The position numbers and the translations under genes are program-made. Below, piece by piece: positions 13,464-37,023 of a stretch of DNA of 41,723 nt. The notes under the pieces were generated by a model. The model had not been told where the DNA came from, did not search any database, and saw nothing but the letters and a program-made list of their open reading frames with translations. How positions within the stretch are numbered: position 1 is the stretch's first letter; the number at the start of each line of letters is the position of its first letter. Source of the DNA: a virus; the IMG/VR virus record IMGVR_UViG_3300037248_000020, positions 1 to 41,723 of that record; one strand, 5' to 3'.

Positions 13464-15548
13464 TTACTTCAGGGACTGACAGACGACGAACGCCTGGGGA
13501 TATTTCAGGCAGACGTCCATTAGCATGAACGTGGTGAGTTCGATCATGCCTTGTTTCTTCAGGCGATACGGATCGACGACGAGCTCGAATCCGCTTCCCC
13601 ACATCCCGATCACGAGCGTCGAGAAGACGCCGAGGATCACAGCATGACAAACGGCGCCGGACGATCCGCGGACTCCGGTTTTCGGAACCTGATTCGAGGA
13701 TCTCGCCTTGTAACCTCCGACGGTGTCGGCGTCGGTCCAGACGGGGAGCGCGATCGTGTTCGCGAGTCGAGACGTGTTTTTGAGCAGCGTCTTGATCGAG
13801 GGAGTCGTGAGCCAAGCCGGATCGCCGAGCTGATCCGCGTTCGTGTCCTCGAGGTCCTCGATCATTTTGAGGACGTCGATATATGCCATCTCGCCGCCGT
13901 TGCCGCTGTCGGCCGCGTCGATGAAGGACTGGACGCCTGTCGTGTTCATGATCCCGACCGGAGAGCTCCCGCCCGTCGGTCCGGCGATCGCCGCGAAGTC
14001 GGCCGCGAGCGCCATATCGCGCGCGAGGTCCTGTCGGACGAGTGTGTCGACATCGATCACGGCCTGAGCAAGTAATTGCCGTGAGTAGCTCGATGAGGAC
14101 TGATAAGTGTGAGGAGAGCTCGGGACCTGTCCGAGCGTGAGGTTCGAGTCCGCGACGTCGGAGCCGGGATTTTCAGCGACCCAGGATCCGGTCGCCTTTC
14201 CGGTTTGTTTCGGGAAAGCGACGTTGTCTCGGAGTCCCGAGATCGTCGTCGCGCCGAGTTCCTTCACGCGCATCGTGTTATACAGAAAATCGATGAACGC
14301 CCCGGGCTCGGTGAACTTGAGCTCGGTTCCGGTCGTCGACGTCTTCGAGTCGAGTCCCGCGCGTTTCGAGATCGCCTGTACGTTTTTGATGCTCCAGGGG
14401 ACGAACAGTCCGCCGTGAGTTCCGCCTTTGTGCGATCGCTCGATCGTCTGAGAGATCTCGAGCTCGAGACAGTTCTCGCGCTTGTCTTCGCCCGCTTCAT
14501 CGTTCTGGATGAGCGTCATGATCCCGCGCGCGAGGTTATATTCGCGTTGCTCTTTCTCGGTGAGCGCGAGTTGCTCCGGCGTTTCTGCCGCGCCTGGGGT
14601 TGTGTTGGGATTCGCCGATCGGGAAGCGACCTCTTCGAGAATCAGAGCGGAAACGGCATCGACCGACCGTCCCTCACTGATCCACGTCGCGACGCGCTCC
14701 TGATCGATCTTGTGACGCTTGGCGAGTTTGATGATCTCGACCGAGACGACACGAGAATCGATTACAGCTTGAGCTGCACTCTGTTCTGCCATTGGATTGT
14801 TCTCCGTGGAGTGCTCGGCCGATCGTTCGACCGAGGTTTTCAGATGTACGGGGAAACCGCGCTCCCCCGCTTTTCGGTTGTGCCCGACGGAAGGATCCGC
14901 GGGAACCGCGACCGAACTAGCTTCGAGCGGCGTCCATGACGTCGCCCTATAAGTGTCGCCCTCGTCCTTCGAGGACTTCTCGAGCGTGTACTCGTTCACG
15001 CCATACCCGACCGAGATATATTTTCGGATCCCGTCGACGACGTCGCGCTTCACTTCCTGCGCTTTCGGGTTCCGCGAAAACTGGACGACGCCGCGAAGTT
15101 TCTTGTCTTTCTTGTCGACGCGGACGTCGCTCACGATCCCGACGATCGACGCCGCGTCGTGCGAGTCCAGAAACGAGAGCCCGCCCTTCGCGCGCGAAAG
15201 ATCGACCGAGTCCGGCGAGTGATCGAGGATCTCTTTTCCGAACCATCGGCGAACGGGAAACTCGGAAGAGATCGCGATCTCGAAACGATCGCCGTCGGCG
15301 CCGGCGTCGGCGCCGTCATCCTCTTCGTCTTCCTCCGGATCGTCGTCGACGTTTGAGCCCCCGACGACTCCGGCCGCTTTCTTCGCGCGCCTCTCGAGGT
15401 TCGCGGCGATCTTTTGTTCCTTCGTCCGCTTCGCTTGTTTCGGGAGTTTTTTTAGTTCGGTGATCTGAAATTCCCGCGTTTGCATCGGAAGGACTTCGCC
15501 GTCTGTGACTGGGGTCGTCCGGATAAGCTCTTCTGCTGTCGTCGCCAT
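13464..15548 (-). CDS. Fused prohead protease and HK97-type major capsid protein
   Basis: A single 694-residue frame carries both activities. Residues about 85-235 form an S78-type prohead protease, with His130 in LSFLDSHD, Ser179 in IRKYISVGYG and Glu209 in TPLEASSVAVPADP as the likely catalytic set. Residues about 235-345 are a helical linker or scaffold-like delta region. From about 350 to the end is an HK97-fold capsid protein (GGLFVPW, FPKQTGKATGSWVAE, YSRQLLAQAVIDV, LARDMALAADFAAI). Most HK97-type phages encode these as two genes. The fusion implies self-cleavage to release mature capsid. The N terminus has an acidic low-complexity stretch at 68-86. The start at 15548 follows AGGAG. Confidence 0.9.
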   Translation of the reverse strand: MATTAEELIRTTPVTDGEVLPMQTREFQITELKKLPKQAKRTKEQKIAANLERRAKKAAGVVGGSNVDDDPEEDEEDDGADAGADGDRFEIAISSEFPVRRWFGKEILDHSPDSVDLSRAKGGLSFLDSHDAASIVGIVSDVRVDKKDKKLRGVVQFSRNPKAQEVKRDVVDGIRKYISVGYGVNEYTLEKSSKDEGDTYRATSWTPLEASSVAVPADPSVGHNRKAGERGFPVHLKTSVERSAEHSTENNPMAEQSAAQAVIDSRVVSVEIIKLAKRHKIDQERVATWISEGRSVDAVSALILEEVASRSANPNTTPGAAETPEQLALTEKEQREYNLARGIMTLIQNDEAGEDKRENCLELEISQTIERSHKGGTHGGLFVPWSIKNVQAISKRAGLDSKTSTTGTELKFTEPGAFIDFLYNTMRVKELGATTISGLRDNVAFPKQTGKATGSWVAENPGSDVADSNLTLGQVPSSPHTYQSSSSYSRQLLAQAVIDVDTLVRQDLARDMALAADFAAIAGPTGGSSPVGIMNTTGVQSFIDAADSGNGGEMAYIDVLKMIEDLEDTNADQLGDPAWLTTPSIKTLLKNTSRLANTIALPVWTDADTVGGYKARSSNQVPKTGVRGSSGAVCHAVILGVFSTLVIGMWGSGFELVVDPYRLKKQGMIELTTFMLMDVCLKYPQAFVVCQSLK

Positions 15549-15575: not shown

Positions 15576-17276
15576 TTACGCGGCCGCGTCGTCCTTGCTG
15601 GATCCGCTTCCGTCGCCGCTTCCGCTTCCGCCGTCTCCCTTGTCGTCCTCGGTCGACTGATCCGCCGGAGCTCCCAGGGGTTTCGACGCCGCGGGGAGAG
15701 TGAGATCGAGGTCGAGCGTCTCGGCGAGCGTCTCTTCCGCGGAGATCTGCTCGAAGACTTCCTCGATGTCCTCGCCCGTTTCAGACACGATCGAGTCTCG
15801 AGACTTGAGTCGCGCGCCGATCGCGAGGACGGCCGCTTGAACGTCTTTCAGCGGGTCGACCCATTGCCAGCCGCGCGGTTCCCACTTGCCCGCTTTGAAC
15901 TTTTCCGGATCGCGCGAGTCGAGAACGAGCGTGCCGGCGAGAAGCGAGAGATCGAGGAAGTCTTCGAAGACGGGCTCGCAAAGACTCTCGATCATCCAGG
16001 ACTGATCGCGCTTCCACTGATCGCGCTCGATCAGGAGTCCGGATCTCATCGAGGAGTAATTGACTCCGACGAGGTCCGAGGCGAGCGCGTTATACGAGAC
16101 GCCGAGTCCCGTCGCGATCTGTCGGAGGATCGTGATCACAAAATTCGGAAACGCGTTCGCGGGGTGATCGGGGTTCCACTCTTTGAACGTCATCCCAGGG
16201 GGGAGCGTCTCGATCGTTCCGGGACTCGCTTCGAACGTGTACTTCTTATCTGGGTTCGGCTCTTCGAACGCCGACGCGTCGGTGTATTCGAGCCATCCCA
16301 TTTTTGCCGCTCCAGTTCGCGCGGCGACGAGCTCGGCCTCGACGTAGCCCTCGAGCATGCGGAGCTGGAGCATGACTGCATGGAACCAAGTAACGCCGCG
16401 CGTCTGGGACACGCGCTCGACGTCGTACAAATGAATTATGTCCTCGGCCGGGATCCGGATCCGCTCGAGCGAGCCGCCGAGGTCGCTCGGATGTCCTGGG
16501 TTGATCCAATAGGCGACCGGCCGAGCCCACTTGTCGACCTCGATCCCGCATCGGATCTCGTTCCCGTCCCTCGAGGGGGGGATCGAATACAGGTGATCAC
16601 ACTGATCGGAGTCGATGAGCTGGAGAGCGAAACGGAACTTGTTTCCCGCGAACCCGCGGACCTTGCGAATGAAAACCTCGCCGTCGACCGCGGTGTTTTT
16701 TAGTGCGACTTCCTGGACTCCGCGGAATGAGAGTCGCCCGTCGACGGTGCAGTTTTTTTTCTTGCACCATTCCGCCCACGCCTCGGAGATCTTGTCGTTA
16801 ATCGGACCCGCGAGGACGTCCTTCACCTTGCCGGAGCCCTTACAGGTTTTGCAGTCGTCCGGAGGGGGAGGGGTCGCGGCCGCGGCCTTCTTTCCCTTTC
16901 CGATCGGCGTCGCCGCCGGGATCTTCCCCGAGCCGTCGCATTTCGGACACTTCCCCGCGCTGTTTCGGACCTGGGGTCGATAGCCGATCCCCTTGTGACC
17001 GAGGACGTTCGCGAGCAGAAGGTTTAGAAAGTTTTTCGCGATCGGATTGTTTCGCGAGAGCTCACGGCCGCGAGCTCGTAAGAGTCGAAGGTTCCCGCGG
17101 ATTTCCTGATCGGCCGAGAGGATCGTCGCGATCCAGTCCAGTGTGAGACGGGTCCCCGATGCTCCAGAGTAGATCGTCGCGTTCGAACGCTTGAGCGAGA
17201 GCCCGACGCTCGAGCCGACGCTTAGGACGATCGAACGAAAAGCGCGACCGACCCAGGAAGATTTTTCTTTTTTCAT
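15576..17276 (-). CDS. Portal protein (lambda gpB family) with zinc-finger insertion
   Basis: This 566-residue protein forms the dodecameric ring through which DNA enters and leaves the head. Family features include RARGRELSRNNPIAKNFLNL near residue 70, VDGEVFIRK, VERVSQTRGVTWFHAVM and GVSYNALASDLVGVNYSSMR. Residues about 107-152 hold an insertion with CPKCDGSG (Cys110, Cys113) and CKTCKGSG (Cys142, Cys145) around an Ala/Pro/Lys linker. This is a pair of the CxxCxGxG motifs typical of the DnaJ zinc domain. The C-terminal 35 residues are Gly/Ser/Asp-rich and probably disordered. The start overlaps the previous stop by ATGA. Confidence 0.9.
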   Translation of the reverse strand: MKKEKSSWVGRAFRSIVLSVGSSVGLSLKRSNATIYSGASGTRLTLDWIATILSADQEIRGNLRLLRARGRELSRNNPIAKNFLNLLLANVLGHKGIGYRPQVRNSAGKCPKCDGSGKIPAATPIGKGKKAAAATPPPPDDCKTCKGSGKVKDVLAGPINDKISEAWAEWCKKKNCTVDGRLSFRGVQEVALKNTAVDGEVFIRKVRGFAGNKFRFALQLIDSDQCDHLYSIPPSRDGNEIRCGIEVDKWARPVAYWINPGHPSDLGGSLERIRIPAEDIIHLYDVERVSQTRGVTWFHAVMLQLRMLEGYVEAELVAARTGAAKMGWLEYTDASAFEEPNPDKKYTFEASPGTIETLPPGMTFKEWNPDHPANAFPNFVITILRQIATGLGVSYNALASDLVGVNYSSMRSGLLIERDQWKRDQSWMIESLCEPVFEDFLDLSLLAGTLVLDSRDPEKFKAGKWEPRGWQWVDPLKDVQAAVLAIGARLKSRDSIVSETGEDIEEVFEQISAEETLAETLDLDLTLPAASKPLGAPADQSTEDDKGDGGSGSGDGSGSSKDDAAA

Positions 17277-17887
17277 CGATCGAGTCCCGTCACGTCGACC
17301 CAGGTCGGGGGATAGGTCGGTTCCTCGGGTTCATTCGTGAACGCGATCACGGCCGTCGACCCCAGGCGCCCGGGATTTTTGAGCTGGAAGAGCTTCGAGC
17401 GATAGTGTCCGCGAAACCAGAGAAGATCCCTCGGAGGGATCTTCACGACCGCGCGTCCGGCGATCTGATAGCTCATCAAGTCGGCCGCGAGTCGTCCCTC
17501 GAGCGCGGCCTCGATCACGACGAGCATTCGCTCAATGTGCGAGATGTAGGCGCCGGCCGCGGCCGTCGAGACGTCGGACTCGATCGTGAGCTCGAGCACG
17601 TCGTTCGAGGGATCGTAGACTTCGCCCGTCCCTGTGTTCACGAGACGCTCGGCGCATTGATAGCGGCCGGCCGGGACCTCCGTCTTCGATGCTGGGATGA
17701 CGATGTCGAAGGACTGTCCGTCGGGGTTGGTCGTCGCGACCTGATTAAAGATCGCGGTCGCGCCGTTCGCGTAAAACGTGTACGTCCAGCCAGCCGAGGC
17801 GAGGTAGTCGTCGAAGGACCGATGAAACTTCACCGTCGTCCCGGCCGCGAAGCGACTCGGAACCTCGTCGGAGATTGTCGGGGGCAT
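17273..17887 (-). CDS. gpW-like head-tail connector protein with Ig-like N terminus
   Basis: The protein is 204 residues from ATG 17887 (a GTG at 17905 is possible; neither has a strong ribosome-binding site). Residues 1-110 look like an Ig-like beta domain (FHRSFDDYLASAGWTYTFY). The C-terminal part reads MLVVIEAALEGRLAADLMSY, then AGRAVVKIPPRDLLWFRGHY. That pattern matches small connector or gpW-like proteins encoded just before portals. It lies directly before the portal with ATGA overlap and is the first gene after the terminator at 17957. Confidence 0.65.
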   Translation of the reverse strand: MPPTISDEVPSRFAAGTTVKFHRSFDDYLASAGWTYTFYANGATAIFNQVATTNPDGQSFDIVIPASKTEVPAGRYQCAERLVNTGTGEVYDPSNDVLELTIESDVSTAAAGAYISHIERMLVVIEAALEGRLAADLMSYQIAGRAVVKIPPRDLLWFRGHYRSKLFQLKNPGRLGSTAVIAFTNEPEEPTYPPTWVDVTGLDR

Positions 17888-17956
17888 CTGTTCGGACGGT
17901 AGCACCTTGCAGGGAAACGATTTAGGCGTCGCGCGCCGAAAATGACCGAGGTAATG

Positions 17957-18016: not shown

Positions 18017-18274
18017 TTATGGCACGTTTGACGCGGGTTTGAGCGACTTCCTCGGCCGGCCGCCGAGCTTGCCGTTCTCGCGGACTGCCTCGGCCTTCGC
18101 TTCCGACTTCGCTCGACCGCCTTTTCGACCGATCATCTTGAAATAGTCCGACATGACCGATTGCACTTCGAGAACAGGGATCGAGCGCATCCGCGCGCTC
18201 CCGATCGACTTCGCGAACCCGCCGCGACGCCCGATCTTCGCCATGTACTTCGATAGGACCGAGTTCGGTTTCAT
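18017..18274 (-). CDS. Small basic protein with repeated IGRxGGxAKS motif
   Basis: The 85-residue protein starts MKPNSVLSKYM; the longer upstream frame is excluded as shadow because this start overlaps the previous stop by ATGA. It contains AKIGRRGGFAKS, KMIGRKGGRAKS and a degenerate NGKLGGRPRKS. The two full copies are 43 residues apart. Such Lys/Arg-Gly-Gly repeats occur in small bacterial KGG-type proteins and in AT-hook-like DNA binders. Nucleic-acid binding is plausible but unproven. It is the last gene before the terminator. Confidence 0.6.
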   Translation of the reverse strand: MKPNSVLSKYMAKIGRRGGFAKSIGSARMRSIPVLEVQSVMSDYFKMIGRKGGRAKSEAKAEAVRENGKLGGRPRKSLKPASNVP

Positions 18275-18609
18275 CGCGCGACCGCCTCCCTCGCCTTCGC
18301 CAATTCGGGGTACTGGAGCGCCCACTCCTCCCAATCGCTGAGACGCAAACCGTGACAGAACTCGTGAGCGTCCGATGCGGTTGTTTTTCCGATCAGATCG
18401 CCCTCGCATTTCAATTCCTTGAGATGGATCTCGCTTTCTCTAGTCCGCCCTTGAGCGCGTAGAACAGCCGCGGTCGGAGCGGTCGGAGCCGTGATCGCTT
18501 GAGGCGATCTAACCGACGACGAGCGCGATCGGCTCGCCGTGACCGTGAACCCGATAATTGCGATCGCTGCCAGAGCTAAAACGAAAACTGTGATGACGAC
18601 TTGCCTCAT
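18271..18609 (-). CDS. Small membrane-anchored periplasmic protein, unknown
   Basis: The start at ATG 18609 is set by GGAGG eight bases upstream. The 112-residue product has an N-terminal transmembrane segment (VVITVFVLALAAIAIIGFTV), a Ser/Thr/Ala/Pro spacer, then a charged domain with two cysteines (KCEGD and EFCHGL) that could form a disulphide. Residues LRLSDWEEWALQYPELAKA form a terminal helix. I do not recognise the family. A membrane-anchored accessory protein between terminase and portal could act in superinfection exclusion; that is a guess from topology. Confidence 0.6.
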   Translation of the reverse strand: MRQVVITVFVLALAAIAIIGFTVTASRSRSSSVRSPQAITAPTAPTAAVLRAQGRTRESEIHLKELKCEGDLIGKTTASDAHEFCHGLRLSDWEEWALQYPELAKAREAVAR

Positions 18610-19568: not shown

Positions 19569-21566
19569 TTACCAGTTTTTGACCCAGGAAGAGCCCCCCG
19601 ATTGGGGTCGGAGGACCGGCCGATCGGGTGCCTGATCCTGGGGTTTCGCTTGCGGTTTGACCTCATCCGAGGGGATCGAGAGCTCGATCGCCTTCTCGCC
19701 GAGTTTGTCGAGTTGCCATTTTCCGATCGTGTAGAGCGCGGCGAGGTTATAAACCTCGAGATCGAGAGCCTCGTTCCGAGCTCGAGTTTTGATGTACTCG
19801 CGGACGAACTGTCCGCCCTTCTTCACCCGCCGAACCCGCTTCTCGCTCGTGAGCTGATCGAGATATTCATCGTCGACGAAGTGAGGGAGATGCATATAAC
19901 CGGGACCTGGAGCGGGGATCTTCATCCTCGCGAAGATCCGATCCTTCGCCGTGTCGGTCCCGATCGTGTAGAGCTTCACGCGATACGAATTGTTGAGCGA
20001 GAACTTGCCGAGGATCGGTTGAGCGCTCTCGCTCGAGCCCTTGAGCGCGAAGATCCGTCGACGTTGCCGCGCCTTCACGAATCGATACACGTCGTCGGAG
20101 TTGTGACCGCCGGAGTCGACCATCGCGCAATGTATCCGGATCTTCCGGCCGGACTCGTGCTCGAACTCGGTGAGGAGAAACTCGTCGACGTCGTTCCAGA
20201 CATCGGTCTGTCCTGGATCCCCGAAAAATGCTTGATAGGCGATCAGCCAGGACTCCTCTTTCGCTCCCCAGCCCTTGACGACGACCTCGAGTCGATCGCC
20301 CTGGACGTCGACCGCGGCCGTGAGGATCGCGACGCCCTTCGGAACGTCCGCGGCGAAGTCCTCGCATCGGCGCCGGAGCGTGTGCGGTTCGAGTGAGTCC
20401 CCTTGCTCTTCCCAGGTCTCGCCGAGTCGGAGGTTAATGAACGCCTTCATTTTTTCGGGATTCTTTTCCTCGTTCGCTTCGTGCCATTCTTGCGCGAGCG
20501 CTTTCCAGTTCTGCCGCCAGGGGGAATAGAGCGCGTTAATGTAGAACCCGACGATCGGCCGGCCGGGGAACGCGGCGATCCAGGTCCCCGCGTCGAGCAT
20601 AGATTGTTTTCGGTATTCGGGGATCTTCGCTTTGCAGCTCACGCAAACGTAAAAGACGGATCCGGCGACGACCTGTCCGTCGGCGTCGACCGCGTACGTG
20701 AGCCGATAGTCCCGCGGTTGATTGTCTCCCAGATCCGGATCTCTCCAGAGAAGCGGTTGCATAAAACTGCACACGGGACACGGGACGTGGAACGTTCGTT
20801 GATCGCTCCGCTCGTAACCTTTCTCGATCGCGGAGATCCCCTTCGGCTTTGCCGGCGTCGAGCCCTTGACGATCTTGTAGTTCGCGAACGCGTCGGTCCG
20901 GCGTGTCCCGATCATGATCGGATCGCCCTCGCCCTCGACGTCCAGGGGATAGCCGTCGATCTCATCGAACAGGACGACGGGGACCGGATCCGATCGGAGA
21001 CCCGAGCCGGCGTTCGCTCCGGTGAGTTTCAGAAAACCCCCGGGGAACTCTTTGAGCGAGAGAGTGTTTCCGGACTTGCGCGAGACGCGATCGCGGACTT
21101 TGATCTTGAGGACCGCGGTCGACTCGATCATCGGCGTGATCCGCTTTTTTCCGTAGTCCTTCGCGTTGTCGATCGTCGGTTGCACGAGCATGATCGGTTT
21201 CGGATCGATGTCCATGAAGTAGCCGACGATGTTATTCAGGACCGCGTCGGAGTAGCCGATCTGGGTCGACTTCTGGACGACGACTTCGTGAACGAGCGGA
21301 TCGAGAACCGCGTTCATCATTTCTACCTGGAACTTCTCGGCGCGAAACGGTCCCGGCCGATCGGTCGATCCCTTCGGCATGACGCGATGTTTCTCCGCCC
21401 ACTCCGCGACCGTGATGTCTTCCGGCGGAGCGAACAGAGCGAGCGCGTCCTGTCGCCGCGCGCGGTAGACCTGGAGAGCGCGCGGATCGTCCTCGAGCCT
21501 AAACGACTCGGGGAGCTTGAACGACCCGATCGTCGTCGTCGGGGTCGTATTGGCTAAGACACTCAA
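19569..21566 (-). CDS. Terminase large subunit (GpA family)
   Basis: This 665-residue packaging motor compares with 641 in lambda gpA. The ATPase domain has the variant Walker A VVQKSTQIGYSD near residue 100 and Walker B VPVVLFDEIDGYP near 200. A zinc-ribbon-like part has CPVCSFMQPL and FYVCVSCKAKIPEYRKQ. The nuclease domain contains AAVDVQGDRLEVVVKGWG, CAMVDSGGHNSDD and RNEALDLEVYNLAALYTIGK, as in the family. The start is TTG at 21566 with AAAGG upstream, inside the small subunit's end (68-bp overlap). GpA-type terminases usually cut at cos sites, but I could not place cos. Confidence 0.95.
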   Translation of the reverse strand: MSVLANTTPTTTIGSFKLPESFRLEDDPRALQVYRARRQDALALFAPPEDITVAEWAEKHRVMPKGSTDRPGPFRAEKFQVEMMNAVLDPLVHEVVVQKSTQIGYSDAVLNNIVGYFMDIDPKPIMLVQPTIDNAKDYGKKRITPMIESTAVLKIKVRDRVSRKSGNTLSLKEFPGGFLKLTGANAGSGLRSDPVPVVLFDEIDGYPLDVEGEGDPIMIGTRRTDAFANYKIVKGSTPAKPKGISAIEKGYERSDQRTFHVPCPVCSFMQPLLWRDPDLGDNQPRDYRLTYAVDADGQVVAGSVFYVCVSCKAKIPEYRKQSMLDAGTWIAAFPGRPIVGFYINALYSPWRQNWKALAQEWHEANEEKNPEKMKAFINLRLGETWEEQGDSLEPHTLRRRCEDFAADVPKGVAILTAAVDVQGDRLEVVVKGWGAKEESWLIAYQAFFGDPGQTDVWNDVDEFLLTEFEHESGRKIRIHCAMVDSGGHNSDDVYRFVKARQRRRIFALKGSSESAQPILGKFSLNNSYRVKLYTIGTDTAKDRIFARMKIPAPGPGYMHLPHFVDDEYLDQLTSEKRVRRVKKGGQFVREYIKTRARNEALDLEVYNLAALYTIGKWQLDKLGEKAIELSIPSDEVKPQAKPQDQAPDRPVLRPQSGGSSWVKNW

Positions 21567-22125
21567 GGGCGCCTTTCAGCGATCGATCGATTTTCACTTG
21601 CGAGACCGCGAGATCGGTTTCGCCGAGGACCTCGGCCGCGAGCCTGGGGGGAAGCGCGAGGATCCGCGTCCGGATCTCGACGACGATCGCCTGGAGGTCC
21701 TTCGTTACCTTCTCGATCGAGACGAGCTGCTCGCGCTTCTCGGCGAGCTCGATCTGTTTCAGCTCCGACTCGATCGACAACATCTTGTGACGCGTCGCCG
21801 ACGCCGAGGTCGCGGGTCCGCCGGCGTCGCCGTCTCCGTCTTCCGGAAGCGCGCGCTCGACGAGCTTTTTCTGGAGATAGCGAACGTACCAGCGAAAACA
21901 GGCGACGACGTCATACACGCCGCGCTCCGACCGCGGGAGTCCTTCCTTCGCGAGCTGCTGGACACGCCTCGAGCCGAGGTTGAGTTCGTGAGCACACTCC
22001 TCGATCCGGCCGACCCAGGTCGGGACGCGACGACTCAAACTCTTTGCGGGTTTCGGCGCCGGCGTCGCCTTCGACTTTTTCTTCGACTTTTTCTTCGACA
22101 TTTTTTTCGACATTTTTTTCGACAC
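21499..22125 (-). CDS. Terminase small subunit (Nu1-like)
   Basis: The 208-residue protein would recognise the packaging site and recruit the large subunit. Residues about 40-75 form a winged-helix-like DNA-binding domain (ECAHELNLGSRRVQQLAKEG). The C-terminal half is helical (IELAEKREQLVSIEKVTKDL) and ends in an acidic segment. The N terminus is a tandem repeat of MSKK then KSKK units encoded by a 12-base repeat, giving three possible ATG starts (22125, 22113, 22101). It overlaps the large-subunit gene by 68 bp. Confidence 0.85.
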   Translation of the reverse strand: MSKKMSKKMSKKKSKKKSKATPAPKPAKSLSRRVPTWVGRIEECAHELNLGSRRVQQLAKEGLPRSERGVYDVVACFRWYVRYLQKKLVERALPEDGDGDAGGPATSASATRHKMLSIESELKQIELAEKREQLVSIEKVTKDLQAIVVEIRTRILALPPRLAAEVLGETDLAVSQVKIDRSLKGALECLSQYDPDDDDRVVQAPRVV

Positions 22126-22806: not shown

Positions 22807-22968
22807 TCACGAGAGCCCGCCGTCGTCTTCCCACTTCTCGAGAGCGAGAGAGCGCGAGCGGAGTACTCCGTCGACCAGGCGAACACAGAACTCGATCAAG
22901 CTCTCGGGCTCGTTCTCGCGCAGTACTCGGTCGACGACCCGAACACAGAACTCAATGAAGCTCTCCAT
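22807..22968 (-). CDS. Microprotein with two tandem 20-residue repeats
   Basis: The 53-residue frame starts with ATG at 22968 in a TGATG overlap with the zinc-finger gene stop. It encodes ESFIEFCVRVVDRVLR and ESLIEFCVRLVDGVLR, followed by a short tail. The DNA repeat has an exact 60-base period (22861-22920 against 22921-22980). Each unit is one amphipathic helix with a single cysteine, so the protein could be a two-helix hairpin or a disulphide-linked dimer. No family recognised. The stop-start coupling and the conservative differences between repeats (F/L, V/L, R/G) support translation. Confidence 0.6.
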   Translation of the reverse strand: MESFIEFCVRVVDRVLRENEPESLIEFCVRLVDGVLRSRSLALEKWEDDGGLS

Positions 22969-22980
22969 CAGTCGCCCGCT
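22861..22980. repeat. Two-copy 60-bp tandem repeat
   Basis: Units at 22861-22920 and 22921-22980 align without gaps over their first 45 bases. The identical core includes GAACACAGAACTC at 22881 and 22941, and AGTACTC, GTCGAC and AGCTCTC blocks are shared. The repeat lies in the coding region of the 53-residue microprotein, covers 20 codons per unit and keeps the frame. Confidence 0.85.
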
Positions 22981-23768
22981 TTGGCGAGCTGGATCACTCC
23001 CAGGCATCCACACGAGGACGTGTTTCCGCTCGTGAGATGGAACCCCCTCACGGTCTTTTTGTTCCCACAGTCGCATTGGCAATGCCAGTGAGTCGCCCTT
23101 CTCTCGATGTGCGAGAACCCGAGGACGGTGAGCTGTCCGAAACGCTTCCCGGTGAGCCGGAGTCGGTTGAACTTGTTCGGGTCCAGACCGATCGAGGCGA
23201 GAGCTTTCATGTACGGCATACCGAAAACGCTCACAATCGTTTTGTCCATGATCCCCGCCCGCTTGAGCTCGATCGCTGTCGGTGTCCGATCGAGCTCGAC
23301 CGCGAGCCGGGTTATTCGCTCGGTGAGTTGTGCTTTGCATCGCGCGTGTAGGTTCCTCGTTTCCGTATTCATGCGGTAGGGGAGAGCCCTTGCTCGAGTC
23401 GCCGCGTGAGCGGCCGCGATCGCTTTCTGTAAATATCTCTTCATCGTCTCGGGGTCGATCGAGGTCCGCCATCGTCGAAGATTTTCGGCGCCGGGGCGAG
23501 CTGCTCCGGGATTGTAGAGCTTCGTCGTTTGCCGCAGACCTCGATCGCGTTTGTATTCCCGCGGCGTGAGTCCCTCATGAGTCGAGAGATGTCCGCTCAA
23601 ACTTTTGAACCATCTCCCGCACTCGTGACACTTCACTTTCTCCGTCGCGGGATCGTACTCGAGAGCGCCGAGGATCGAGTGTCCCGATTCCACGTACGGC
23701 GCCTTTGCTTCCCGCGGGAAAACTGATCCCGCGATGACGACGTGTGTCGCGACTGCTTTTTCTTTCAT
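22968..23768 (-). CDS. Ros/MucR zinc-finger protein with homing-endonuclease-type zinc domain
   Basis: The 266-residue protein starts at ATG 23768 behind GAGGAG. Residues 47-75 are a prokaryotic Ros/MucR-type finger: Cys47, Cys50, His60, His64 and the conserved FKSL...HxxxH...TPREYK pattern. The middle is helical and basic. Residues about 205-260 (LTGKRFGQLTVLGF, then CQCDCGNKKTVRGFHLTSGN and SCGCLG) match the small domain often attached to HNH or AP2-type homing endonucleases. No nuclease active site is visible. It is probably a DNA-binding regulator or a relic of a mobile endonuclease. It opens a short operon after a palindrome-rich gap. Confidence 0.75.
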   Translation of the reverse strand: MKEKAVATHVVIAGSVFPREAKAPYVESGHSILGALEYDPATEKVKCHECGRWFKSLSGHLSTHEGLTPREYKRDRGLRQTTKLYNPGAARPGAENLRRWRTSIDPETMKRYLQKAIAAAHAATRARALPYRMNTETRNLHARCKAQLTERITRLAVELDRTPTAIELKRAGIMDKTIVSVFGMPYMKALASIGLDPNKFNRLRLTGKRFGQLTVLGFSHIERRATHWHCQCDCGNKKTVRGFHLTSGNTSSCGCLGVIQLAKAGD

Positions 23769-27087: not shown

Positions 27088-27455
27088 GCTGCCGCCTTTA
27101 CTGCGGAGACAACGGCCTTCTTCACGTCCTCCGGAATGCGTTTGGCAAATCGGGCGAAATCCTTCGGTCGCTTCATCTGCCAGGGAACCGCTTTTATGCT
27201 CTCCATCATCCGCGCGCATTCAAACGCCTTTCTCCGCGCGCGAACACTGCGGACAATGGCGTATCCGGTCGGGACGTGAGTCACGGTGTAGCCGCTTTCG
27301 TTGAATACGTGCCGCGAATAATCGCAATCACCGTTCGTTTTGCGCCTCCACCGAATGTCCCGATGAACAGCAAAAAAGCGGCCGACCTTCCTCGCGACAA
27401 TCGCGATAGGGACGGTTTTGTTGTTCTCGTCTGGCAACTTCACTTTGATCGTCAT
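27084..27455 (-). CDS. Hypothetical 123-residue protein of atypical composition
   Basis: The protein starts MTIKVKLPDENNKTVPIAIV and is basic, with SRHVFNESGYTVTHVPTGYA in the middle and a Lys/Ala-rich helical end. No family recognised. Its DNA contains no GATC between 27091 and 27420, whereas the rest of the genome has about one per 34 bases, so it may be a recent arrival. ATGA coupling on both sides shows it is integrated in the operon. Confidence 0.55.
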   Translation of the reverse strand: MTIKVKLPDENNKTVPIAIVARKVGRFFAVHRDIRWRRKTNGDCDYSRHVFNESGYTVTHVPTGYAIVRSVRARRKAFECARMMESIKAVPWQMKRPKDFARFAKRIPEDVKKAVVSAVKAAA

Positions 27456-28762
27456 GCGGTTTTCTCCTCGACCGCTCTCACGCTCCCGTCTTCCATGACG
27501 ACGCCGACTTTTCCGCTCGTATCGACGCGCTCGATCCAGATCTGATAATCGGCCGCTTCCGCCATTTCCGAGAGGAGCTTCATGTTCGTCTCGTCCAGGA
27601 GCGAGCCGTCCTGGATCCGGAGAACTTTGAGCTTGGGGTTTGCTGCCATCGCGACCGCGACCGAGATCCGGAGCTGCTCGGCCGAGCTCGCTTGTGCGAA
27701 CGGTAGCCCGTTGTAAACGACTTCACCGTCGCCGAAGGACAGTCCCTCGATCGGCATCTTCGCCGCGGCGATCGCGTCGCGCTTTGCCGTGACCCGCGCG
27801 GCCATCGCGTCGGTCAGAGCGTCCGCGGCCGCGCGCTTCTGCTTCGCGTCGGCGAAGATCGCGAGCTGCTGCTTTTTCCGGATCACGGCCGCGTTGATCC
27901 CGCGCGCGGAGTTGATCAGCTCGCGGACTTCGGACGTGTCGATCGGCGGCGGGATCGTCATCGCGTCGACCTGAGTTTCTAAATAGTGCGACTCCGCGAT
28001 GTGATTCTCGGCCGCGGTGTCGGCCGCAGTCGCTTGCTCCAGGATCTTCTCGGCCTGGGATCGCATGCTCCGCGCGCGCTCTCTCGCGTCGTATGCGAGT
28101 TGCTTTTGTGACTCGATCTTCGACTCGAGCGACTGTTTGTCGCTCTTCACGCGCTCGATCCCGGCGTTTGTCTGTCCGGCCGCTTCGAGCTCCTGAGCGA
28201 GTTTCGAGATGTCGATCTCTTCGTCTGGAGTGTCGTCGGGGAACGTGAACCCGAACCCGCGCGCGTCGAGCGATTTGATCTCGCGGTTCAAGTCGGTCCG
28301 CTTCTCGAAGTCGCTCGCATTGAGCGCGTCGAGCTTGTCCAGGTCGAGATCGATCTTCACCATCGAGCGGAGCTGATCGAGTTGCTTTTTCGGATCCATT
28401 CTCGAGAACTCGAGCGGATCGAATGTTAGTTTCCCGAGCATCTCGTCGAGGAGACGTTGAGGAGTTGGGAAGCGCGCGCCGTTTTTTGCCTCGGCGACGA
28501 GCGAGGTCCCGGTGTCCTTCGAGAACTTCCGGATCACGGTGATCTCGCCCAATTCAAGTTTGACGTGTGCTTTGAGTTGCCCGCGGCGAATCGGTTGAGA
28601 CGGGATGTCCTTCGCGCCGGCGAGCGCGTAGAAGATCGCGTCGAGCACGCTCGACTTTCCGGATCCGTTCGGTCCGGTGATCTCGACGATGTGACCGGCC
28701 GGCGTGATCGCGACGACCTTGAGCTTCTTGATATTCTCGGCTTCCAAACGAAGTATTTTCAT
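27452..28762 (-). CDS. SMC/Rad50-like AAA ATPase
   Basis: The start at ATG 28762 follows AGAGAGG. The 436-residue protein has a Walker A GPNGSGKSS at residues 30-38, a short coiled-coil centre from about 150 to 290, a signature-like SSAEQLRIS, and a Walker B-like LKVLRIQDGSLLDE near 375. It is much shorter than Rad50 (over 800), with an abbreviated coiled coil, as in phage SbcC/RecF-like ATPases. It likely acts in phage recombination or replication with the nuclease genes upstream. No SbcD-type nuclease partner is visible. Confidence 0.8.
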   Translation of the reverse strand: MKILRLEAENIKKLKVVAITPAGHIVEITGPNGSGKSSVLDAIFYALAGAKDIPSQPIRRGQLKAHVKLELGEITVIRKFSKDTGTSLVAEAKNGARFPTPQRLLDEMLGKLTFDPLEFSRMDPKKQLDQLRSMVKIDLDLDKLDALNASDFEKRTDLNREIKSLDARGFGFTFPDDTPDEEIDISKLAQELEAAGQTNAGIERVKSDKQSLESKIESQKQLAYDARERARSMRSQAEKILEQATAADTAAENHIAESHYLETQVDAMTIPPPIDTSEVRELINSARGINAAVIRKKQQLAIFADAKQKRAAADALTDAMAARVTAKRDAIAAAKMPIEGLSFGDGEVVYNGLPFAQASSAEQLRISVAVAMAANPKLKVLRIQDGSLLDETNMKLLSEMAEAADYQIWIERVDTSGKVGVVMEDGSVRAVEEKTA

Positions 28763-28983
28763 GCTTGCCTCTCTTTCCACTCGCGGACCTTTGCGCCGGC
28801 CGCGGTTGCTTTCGCTTCCGTGACGAGCTTGAGGAGATCCGTCACGCTTGTCTCGACGCTCGGCGTCTTCGAGCAGTCGACGAACGTTTGTGTCGTCCCA
28901 GGAGTCCGGATCAGCTCGAGAAGAGCGTCGACGAACGCCATTTTCTGAGAGCCCGTGAGTTGCATCGTGTAGACGACGCTCAT
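28759..28983 (-). CDS. Hypothetical 74-residue helical protein
   Basis: The start at ATG 28983 overlaps the previous stop by ATGA. The product is MSVVYTMQLTGSQKMAFVDA, then a central CSKTPSVETSV and a helical Lys/Glu-rich C terminus. No family recognised. Being directly upstream of the ATPase and translationally coupled, it might be a small partner. Confidence 0.5.
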   Translation of the reverse strand: MSVVYTMQLTGSQKMAFVDALLELIRTPGTTQTFVDCSKTPSVETSVTDLLKLVTEAKATAAGAKVREWKERQA

Positions 28984-32143: not shown

Positions 32144-32399
32144 TTTTCTCCTTTTCGTTTTCCCCTCGACTCGCCGCGCGTGTGAGCGCGCGACACTGAT
32201 CGACGATCTGTTCTCGCGTTGCATCGGAGCGGAACCCGATCGCGAGCGCGATTTGTTGCCAGTCCCGGGAGTCCGCCTCTCGGTCGTTCACGGCGTCGAC
32301 GATGAGCTTCGCGTCGATCGCCGTGTGACACTGAGCGATCGGCCGATCGTCCTCTCCGTAAACATTGATCGGAACGTTTTTGCCGACTCTCCAGGTCAT
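32127..32399 (-). CDS. Hypothetical 90-residue phage protein
   Basis: The protein begins MTWRVGKNVPINVYGEDDRP and has AIDAKLIVDAVNDREADSRD, a pattern common in small phage proteins of unknown role that track intracellular nucleotide or DNA metabolism genes. It lies between exonuclease and annealing protein, overlapping the first by ATGA and the second by 17 bp. A possible accessory of that pair. Confidence 0.6.
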   Translation of the reverse strand: MTWRVGKNVPINVYGEDDRPIAQCHTAIDAKLIVDAVNDREADSRDWQQIALAIGFRSDATREQIVDQCRALTRAASRGENEKEKNGNAH

Positions 32400-33430
32400 T
32401 CGAAGAGTGCCTCCTGGAGCTCGGGAGCCGTTTGTTCGGCGAGCTCTTTCGCGCGTTTCGCGACGAACCGACGCCCGCCTTTTTTGGTGATGACGCTCTC
32501 CATGTGCGTCTCGCGGAGAGACGTAATGACGGCCTCGGGAATCGAGTACGCCTTCGCGAGATGCGCGAGGAGCTTCTCGAAATTGATCACGGTCGCGGTC
32601 GAGTCCTTGCAGAGTCTCCAGGTCACTTTCCCCCAGGGACCGACGAGCCCGTCGTTCTCCGCGAGAAACGCCTTGATCACGTTTTTCGCTTCCTCGATCC
32701 GCTTCTCGGTCGTTTTCTTTATCTCGCTGTAATTGAGGACGTTAAAGACGTGACGCATGAGATCGGGGTTCGAGTTCTCGTCGACCTTGACCATCGGTCC
32801 GCGGTTGAACGGATATTTCGTCGCGAGATAGTTCCCCCAGGACTCGGACGCGTCGAGCGGGGGTTCGACTTTCTTGACGACGTACGCGTGCCACCATTCG
32901 CGGAGCTGCTCGAGCATCGATCGCTCCATCTCCAGATCGCGCCGGAGTTGATAGATCGCGAACTTGAATCCGCCGTGAAGGACCGCGATGTCGCATCGAT
33001 CGAGGTCCGCGACGGCCATATAATGCGCGGCCTGGAGGATGTAGTGATCGGGGACCTGATCGCTCCCAGGATCCCCGAACTTGTCCGCGAACTGATGTTC
33101 GCTCTTCAGTTCGATCACGCGGCCGTCGGCCGGCGCGAGGCGATCAGGCGAACCGATGATCTCGGGGAACTTGAGATGCTGGATGATCTCCGGTTCCGGG
33201 ATGATGACTTCTCGAGAAGTCTGTTCGGAGTAGAGACCCGCGATCACGGGCTCGAGGAGATGTCCGAGCTTGAACAAAAACTTCTCGTCATCGCTCGGGG
33301 GTTGAGGTTGAACCTTCGATCTCCAGATGTCGAGCGGAGATCTCCAGGGATCGAGACCCAGGACGGCCGGCGAGTCGGATCCGCCGAGTCCCAGGCGCCG
33401 AGCTTCGAGCCACTGCGCGCGCGTGCTCAT
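32396..33430 (-). CDS. YqaJ-family recombination exonuclease
   Basis: The 344-residue protein begins MSTRAQWLEARRLGLGGSDS, with GGSDSPAVLGLDPWRSPLDI matching the YqaJ/lambda-exonuclease fold. GSPDRLAPADGRVIELKSEH supplies the Asp and the ExK-type metal ligands, and DHYILQAAHYMAVADLDRCD follows as in the family. It degrades one strand of duplex DNA to expose single strands for annealing. It is ATGA-coupled at both ends and paired with a candidate annealing protein downstream. Confidence 0.9.
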   Translation of the reverse strand: MSTRAQWLEARRLGLGGSDSPAVLGLDPWRSPLDIWRSKVQPQPPSDDEKFLFKLGHLLEPVIAGLYSEQTSREVIIPEPEIIQHLKFPEIIGSPDRLAPADGRVIELKSEHQFADKFGDPGSDQVPDHYILQAAHYMAVADLDRCDIAVLHGGFKFAIYQLRRDLEMERSMLEQLREWWHAYVVKKVEPPLDASESWGNYLATKYPFNRGPMVKVDENSNPDLMRHVFNVLNYSEIKKTTEKRIEEAKNVIKAFLAENDGLVGPWGKVTWRLCKDSTATVINFEKLLAHLAKAYSIPEAVITSLRETHMESVITKKGGRRFVAKRAKELAEQTAPELQEALFE

Positions 33431-35343: not shown

Positions 35344-37023
35344 CTAGAGATTCAACGGGATATAAACGCGCGACGGGGTTTCTGCTATGAAGTGAGCCGT
35401 TGTGCGATGGCTCGCATAATAGCCGAAACTTTGTCGCGGAAGAACTCGCCCCCGATCGCTGATCGGAGGTTTGCGGTTTTCGCCTCCAGGTCCCGGCGGG
35501 ACGAGGAGACTCATTCCGTCGACGACATAGTTCGCGACCTTGATCTCGGGAACGAGCGAGAACAGGATCCGACGCTTTGAGTCGACGTGCATCGTCCGCC
35601 AAGTGAAGAGCGGCCGAAAGAGTGCGACGAGCTGCTGGACTCCGATCCCCGGGTGGGAGGGAACTTCTTCCTCGAGTGCCGCGACGACGAGCGCGCGATC
35701 GCGCTCGACGGCCGAGACCCGACCGTCTCGGTCATCGCGGGGGATCATCCCCTCGAAGTACCCGTCCAGGATCCGCTGTCGCTTCTCTTCCAGCCGGCCG
35801 AGTTGCGCCTGGAGCCGAGCGATTTTCTTCTCGGACCCCTTGCCCTTCACGCGCGCCTCGAACTGCTCGACGATCGCCTCGAGAAAACCGCGGTCAGTGA
35901 GTCGAGTCGCGAAGATCCCGTCGAGATGCTCCTCGAGTCGATCCCGCCTCATGTAGACCGTCGCGCATCGGTCCTCGAAGGGAATCGGGTTTCGCTTGTT
36001 CGAGATGTATGAGCCCTTCGCGGAACACACGTAATAGTCCGAGACGAGCCCCGATTTTTGCGACGTGTACGTCTTCGGATATTCCGCGGACCCACACGCC
36101 GAGCATGCGAGAAAACCGTGATAGGTAAAGCGCGAGTCGGTCGAGTGTCGCGCGCGCAAGTGACGATCACGCTTCTGCGAGAGCATCTCCTGGACGCGTG
36201 CGAAGTCGGCCTCGGAGACGATCGGCTCGGCGATCACTTTGATCCGGATCACGTCCTCGGCCGCTCGATCCATTTTTCGCCGATCGGATTGTCGGCCGTC
36301 GACCTGGGCATATCTCGCCTCACGCGAGGGATCGCGCTTTTTGTCGTAAACGCGCCATCCCGTATAGATCGGGTTGGAGAGGATCCCGCGAATGTTCCAT
36401 TTGAGGATCCCCGTCGCGCGCTCGATCTCGTTCCAGCTACTCACGCCCGAGAGGAAGAGCTCGAAACACTTTTGAACCTTCGTGATCTCGGGAAGGTAGT
36501 ACCAGCCGCGCTCGTCGTCGTACGCGACGGCCGTCGGCCAAGTTGCCGGCGCCGAGGGACACTTCCCGAGCTTCCGCATCTCCTCGCGCGCGCCTTGAGA
36601 CTTCTCGAGAAACTCGGTTTTTTCGTTGCCGGCCATCAGAGCGCGGATCGCGCCGATCAGCTTTCCGCCTTTCGTCGAGAAGTCGATCGGACCGTCGGGG
36701 AGGACGAGCAGCGTCTTCGAGTCGGCGAACGCCTGGAGGAGATAGAAGTCGCCGAGGTTCTCGGGACGCATGAGGCGAGAGAACTCGCGCGCGACGACCG
36801 CGTGAACTTCCGGATTCTGGATCAGGTTCATGAGTCCCTGGATCTCCGGCGAGGCGAGCACGTCGGAACCGCCGACGTCGGTGATCTCGATCGTCTTCGT
36901 GATCGTGAGCCCGTTCGCCGCCGCCGTCTTTCGGTTGATGGTACGTTGCGCGGGAATCGAAAAACGGTCGTCGCCCGCTTGCTGGATCGTGGAAACGCGG
37001 ATCAGTTCGATAGCTTTTTTCAC
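35344..37023 (-). CDS. int: Large serine recombinase (integrase)
   Basis: The 559-residue protein has the resolvase catalytic domain with Ser11 in ELIRVSTIQQAG, followed by VVAREFSRLMRPENLGDF. The Recombinase domain spans about 155-270 (LKWNIRGILSNPIYTGWRVY), then a zinc ribbon (FLACSACGSAEYPKT ... YYVCSAKG) and a coiled coil near 370-400 (IARLQAQLGRLEEKRQRIL). It would integrate phage DNA at attP/attB without a host factor, which defines the phage as temperate. In this family attP often lies beside the integrase gene, pointing to the AT-rich gap at 37289-37435. Confidence 0.92.
   Translation of the reverse strand: MKKAIELIRVSTIQQAGDDRFSIPAQRTINRKTAAANGLTITKTIEITDVGGSDVLASPEIQGLMNLIQNPEVHAVVAREFSRLMRPENLGDFYLLQAFADSKTLLVLPDGPIDFSTKGGKLIGAIRALMAGNEKTEFLEKSQGAREEMRKLGKCPSAPATWPTAVAYDDERGWYYLPEITKVQKCFELFLSGVSSWNEIERATGILKWNIRGILSNPIYTGWRVYDKKRDPSREARYAQVDGRQSDRRKMDRAAEDVIRIKVIAEPIVSEADFARVQEMLSQKRDRHLRARHSTDSRFTYHGFLACSACGSAEYPKTYTSQKSGLVSDYYVCSAKGSYISNKRNPIPFEDRCATVYMRRDRLEEHLDGIFATRLTDRGFLEAIVEQFEARVKGKGSEKKIARLQAQLGRLEEKRQRILDGYFEGMIPRDDRDGRVSAVERDRALVVAALEEEVPSHPGIGVQQLVALFRPLFTWRTMHVDSKRRILFSLVPEIKVANYVVDGMSLLVPPGPGGENRKPPISDRGRVLPRQSFGYYASHRTTAHFIAETPSRVYIPLNL

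Follow-up and report, generated by a model that had tools for sequence, protein, structure and literature searches.

The window, i.e., the whole stretch of 41,723 nucleotides of viral DNA that was analysed (positions 1 to 41,723 of IMG/VR record IMGVR_UViG_3300037248_000020), carries a portal gene at 15576..17276. The gene lies on the minus strand, like every other gene and feature placed below, and the plus strand is not open there. Its 566-aa product is a lambda-family portal by family profile, fold, and gene place alike. A Pfam scan of the protein matches the whole PF05136 (Phage_portal_2) profile over residues 43-425 with an E of 7.2e-94, and phrog_21 matches with an E of 7.5e-100. The portal fold is borne by an AlphaFold model built from a 134-sequence alignment (mean pLDDT 85.8), whose top matches among solved structures are the R4C, lambda, and Chi portals. 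The R4C portal (PDB 8gtd) is the best of these, with a TM of 0.85 by target.

Genes around the portal

The portal gene sits between the terminase and capsid genes. The order is terminase small subunit (21499..22125; phrog_57, E 8.4e-29), gpA-type terminase large subunit (19569..21566; PF05876 and PF20454), head-tail joining protein (17273..17905; phrog_5774, E 1.5e-17), portal, and a capsid protein fused to the head protease (13464..15548; phrog_617, phrog_4523, and PF05065). This last gene holds the major capsid protein and the head maturation protease in a single frame of 694 aa, which relatives retain whether or not they have the portal insert described below. The terminase large subunit has a CxxC...CxxC pair of its own at residues 263-311, and at least two CxxC motifs occur in 46 of the 53 terminase homologues that cover these residues. 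Between the terminase and head-tail joining genes, 18017-18409 encodes a small protein in which an IGRxGG...GKLGGRPRK motif is repeated; the motif recurs in relatives. This small gene was considered as one that tracks the insert and was dropped, as a weaker homologue is present in the insert-less contig L013.

Several other genes of the window have recognizable products. The protein at 22968-23768 combines a Ros/MucR zinc-finger match with matches to HNH domains of the homing-endonuclease type. An SMC/RecF-like AAA protein is encoded at 27452-28780, a YqaJ-type viral recombinase at 32396-33430, and a serine recombinase with Resolvase and Recombinase domains at 35344-37023. The serine recombinase suggests a temperate phage.

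Composition of the portal insert

The first-pass annotation placed CPKCDGSG at residues 110-117 and CKTCKGSG at residues 142-149 of the portal, joined by an Ala/Pro/Lys linker, and these positions are exact, with the coding strand being the minus strand. The whole insertion comprises residues 110-154 (45 aa; 16815..16949) and is missing from the sister portals L012/L130, L013/L156, and L022. In the first knuckle (16926..16949), C110, P111, C113, and G115 are invariant among the insert-bearing portals, as are C142, C145, G147, and G149 in the second (16830..16853). The linker between them, residues 118-141 (16854..16925), reads KIPAATPIGKGKKAAAATPPPPDD in the window portal. It is hypervariable, with a length of 13-36 aa among relatives and no invariant column, in contrast to the eight invariant residues of the knuckles. 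The cysteine positions are encoded by TGT in some portals and by TGC in others, and the amino acid never changes. Out of 200,000 shuffled versions of the portal, 212 contained at least one CxxCxGxG motif and none contained two. C171 and C176 were considered as additional metal ligands and dropped, since both are present in insert-less portals too.

The insert shares its CxxCxGxG knuckles with the central cysteine-rich domain of DnaJ (PF00684). All ten of the insert-bearing portals that were scanned match the DnaJ_CXXCXGXG model, with a best E of 2e-4, and these matches take in the profile positions of one motif pair. In the window portal the match has an E of 0.005 and 17.5 bits, which is below the curated cut-off of 32.7. 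The portal has only two CxxCxGxG motifs, whereas DnaJ (Hsp40) needs four, forming two zinc sites, and the Pfam scan gave no match in the portal to a J domain with its HPD motif. The portal is not a member of the DnaJ family. The insert nevertheless resembles a DnaJ-type knuckle pair, and as a module it is real and conserved. The RNase E/G and Anti-TRAP models also match weakly, each in eight of the ten insert-bearing portals.

The net charge of the insert is +1 to +7 in every insert-bearing portal, while the charge over all other residues totals -3 to -19. The window insert has a net charge of +6, a value reached by 11% of the 46-residue segments of the same protein, mostly within its N-terminal 110 residues, and its charge is not exceptional within its protein. 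The insert of L024 has a net charge of only +1, and its first knuckle reads CxxCxGxA. In the 134-sequence model, the pLDDT of the insert is 53-61. A shallow prediction from 12 sequences gave a poor model of the portal (pLDDT 38), with both knuckles at about 70.

Distribution and history of the insert

Scans of viral contigs found the insert in 14 further contigs, whose portals are 72-84% identical. The earlier proposal of a DnaJ-type paired insertion in a lambda-type portal is borne out by the alignment of related portals, in which all four cysteines are kept at both knuckles wherever the insert occurs (14/14). Two complete CxxCxGxG motifs accompany these cysteines in the insert-bearing relatives, with L024 as the exception. 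The three sister contigs, whose portals are 74-77% identical, lack the entire insert at the same point and in frame. A set of 250 portal ORF records was drawn from bacterial genomes and viral contigs, with some contigs fetched more than once, and in this set a CxxC pair in the wing loop is restricted to the insert clade. The CxxC screen misplaced the loop anchor in L007, L008, and L019, and these were counted separately. Portals in general do not have the insert; nearly all of the family, close sisters included, is without it.

A tree computed without the insert columns places the 13 insert-bearing sequences that it covers together with the three sisters in a single clade (support 100/99). Within it, L131, L143, and L024 (100/97) split from the remaining members (100/97). 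The presence and absence of the insert take three changes on this tree, at least two of which are required by the starred branches. A single gain with two losses is the simplest history. The module is thus clade-specific and dispensable in some members; it is not essential, because sister phages lack it.

The closest portal in a cellular genome comes from a Terriglobia (Acidobacteriota) assembly, has about 60% identity, and is without the insert. It is only a hint of the host. Related portals occur in 6 of the 396 Acidobacteriota genomes surveyed. The best of them, L095, has no insert, and the automated CxxC screen found no CxxC pair in the loop of the other five (L174-L178). The insert with its flanks gave no match at E 1 as a query against the phage collection.

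Wing-loop position and possible roles

The segment VRNSAGK just ahead of the insert (residues 103-109; 16950..16970) is the counterpart of the DNA-contacting wing loop of the portal of the marine phage vB_DshS-R4C, the nearest solved fold. In R4C, the wing loop spans 10 residues (99-108), and two of them, R100 and K105, reach and touch the layered genomic DNA (PMC10276861). The R4C sequence aligns to the window portal here with no gap, R100 falling on R104 and K105 on K109, and a profile alignment confirms both pairs. The insert follows directly after K109, so that it extends the wing loop, and by alignment it occupies the place of the R4C genome-contacting loop. The R4C loop itself has no cysteines and only 10 residues, and zinc is not mentioned in PMC10276861. 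The lambda portal gpB (PDB 8k38 and 8xow) has the same family and fold, and its loop has neither an insert nor a CxxC pair.

Zinc binding by the insert is highly probable from the conserved motif, in which the knuckles keep all four cysteines and their Pro and Gly residues while the linker varies in length. The two knuckles of one portal chain would clamp a single zinc through their four cysteines and close the base of the wing-loop extension. Pairing within one chain is likely. The Lys-rich knuckles and linker would then form a basic projection on each of the 12 subunits, and the twelve projections would contact the layered DNA that surrounds the portal. In phages 812 (PMC12886913) and JBD30, the wing also uses basic residues to hold DNA wound about the portal. 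Position and charge make contact of the insert with packaged DNA plausible, at a little under an even chance, and this reading is carried over from a homologue (R4C) of about 28% identity that itself has no insert. The points in its favour are the R4C-equivalent loop, the matching residue identities and numbering, and a basic insert in otherwise acidic portals. Overall, the best, though still tentative, explanation is a structural pair of zinc knuckles stapling a long, Lys-rich extension of a genome-contacting loop inside the capsid. The low pLDDT of the insert, the insert-less sisters, the unexceptional charge of +6, and the charge of +1 in L024 count against it.

The wing of the portal faces the procapsid lumen, where the scaffold sits, and DnaJ-type knuckles can bind proteins. 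The knuckle pair could thus be a docking site in head assembly, where an internal head protein or the part of the protease-capsid fusion that resembles a scaffold might bind, and DNA contact would be incidental. The fusion is encoded beside the portal, but the syntenic capsid-protease gene is also present in the insert-less sisters, where it is 71-78% identical to that of the window. A comparison of neighbouring genes across relatives revealed no gene that clearly tracks the insert, and no partner was found, which leaves a docking site unlikely. The insert could otherwise be a self-folding module of little function, nearly neutral and tolerated at a permissive loop. Its lack in nearly all portals, its apparent loss inside the clade, and its unconstrained linker are consistent with this. 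However, the knuckle residues are invariant across portals of 72-84% identity and the cysteines change only synonymously, which suggests that selection keeps the fold of the insert, even though selection against misfolding alone could suffice. A nearly neutral module is therefore distinctly unlikely.

In RNase E, a zinc link joins two protomers. A zinc shared between adjacent portal subunits, held by the first knuckle of one chain and the second knuckle of the next, would staple the dodecamer. A ring of 12 identical loops permits this, and the weak RNase E/G and Anti-TRAP matches show the same knuckle type. Both knuckles are nevertheless on one chain, the shortest linkers of 13-15 aa make closure within the chain simplest, and in phage 812 the distance from one wing to the next along the anchor DNA is 34 angstrom (PMC12886913). 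This arrangement is improbable. Even less probable, and by some way, is a redox or metal switch, the recruitment of a host chaperone, or a terminase clamp, all raised in the first-pass annotation. Zinc sites formed by cysteines can have redox activity, and the motif is similar to that of DnaJ, yet a J domain is missing and the portal has two motifs where DnaJ has four. The terminase docks at the outward-facing clip of the portal. A clamp on it is unlikely because the insert lies in the lumen-side wing, whereas the clip crosses the capsid and faces out; in R4C it is the clip domain that lies open to the outside of the head (PMC10276861). Among the roles offered earlier, DNA contact is thus favoured by the wing-loop location and terminase binding is disfavoured with the wing inside the capsid, while nothing was found in support of a chaperone-binding or redox-switch role.

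Zinc-stapled loops and DnaJ-type knuckle pairs occur in other phage proteins. In the HMO-2011-type DNA polymerase, a partial DnaJ domain with two CXXCXGXG motifs is likewise inserted between the protein's own domains (PMC9038755), but this carrier is an unrelated replication enzyme and not a virion portal. CXXCXGXG pairs are also found in the Q-like protein of phage Loki and the DnaJ-like protein of phage Riggi. The stopper of phage 812, a head-tail connector protein, has a four-cysteine loop that is restricted to one phage family and is stapled by zinc, the metal being seen in a crystal (PMC12886913). It differs from the insert in being another protein with a CPC...CxxC motif and a role in gating (PMC12886913), instead of the proposed DNA contact. 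The searched portions of the literature on zinc and portals gave no portal with zinc or a DnaJ-type insert. The portal family, the knuckle pairs in other phage proteins, and the zinc-stapled connector loop are known, and the knuckle pair in a portal is new to the portions of the literature searched.

With this insert, the phage proteins known to contain DnaJ-type knuckle pairs include a virion protein. Structural work has yet to settle how a portal retains its genome and lets it go, and in several phages loops of the wing have begun to stand out as DNA anchors. The insert might strengthen genome anchoring or spooling, although such a benefit is speculative. A zinc-dependent genome anchor, in which a metal-stapled basic loop extension evolved in one phage clade and is repeated twelve times around the portal, is possible but rather doubtful. 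If true, it would be a role undescribed for portals in the portions of the literature searched. Since closely related sister portals differ in whether they carry this compact, putative metal-binding module at the wing loop, its effect on assembly, packaging, and DNA retention is open to direct comparison.
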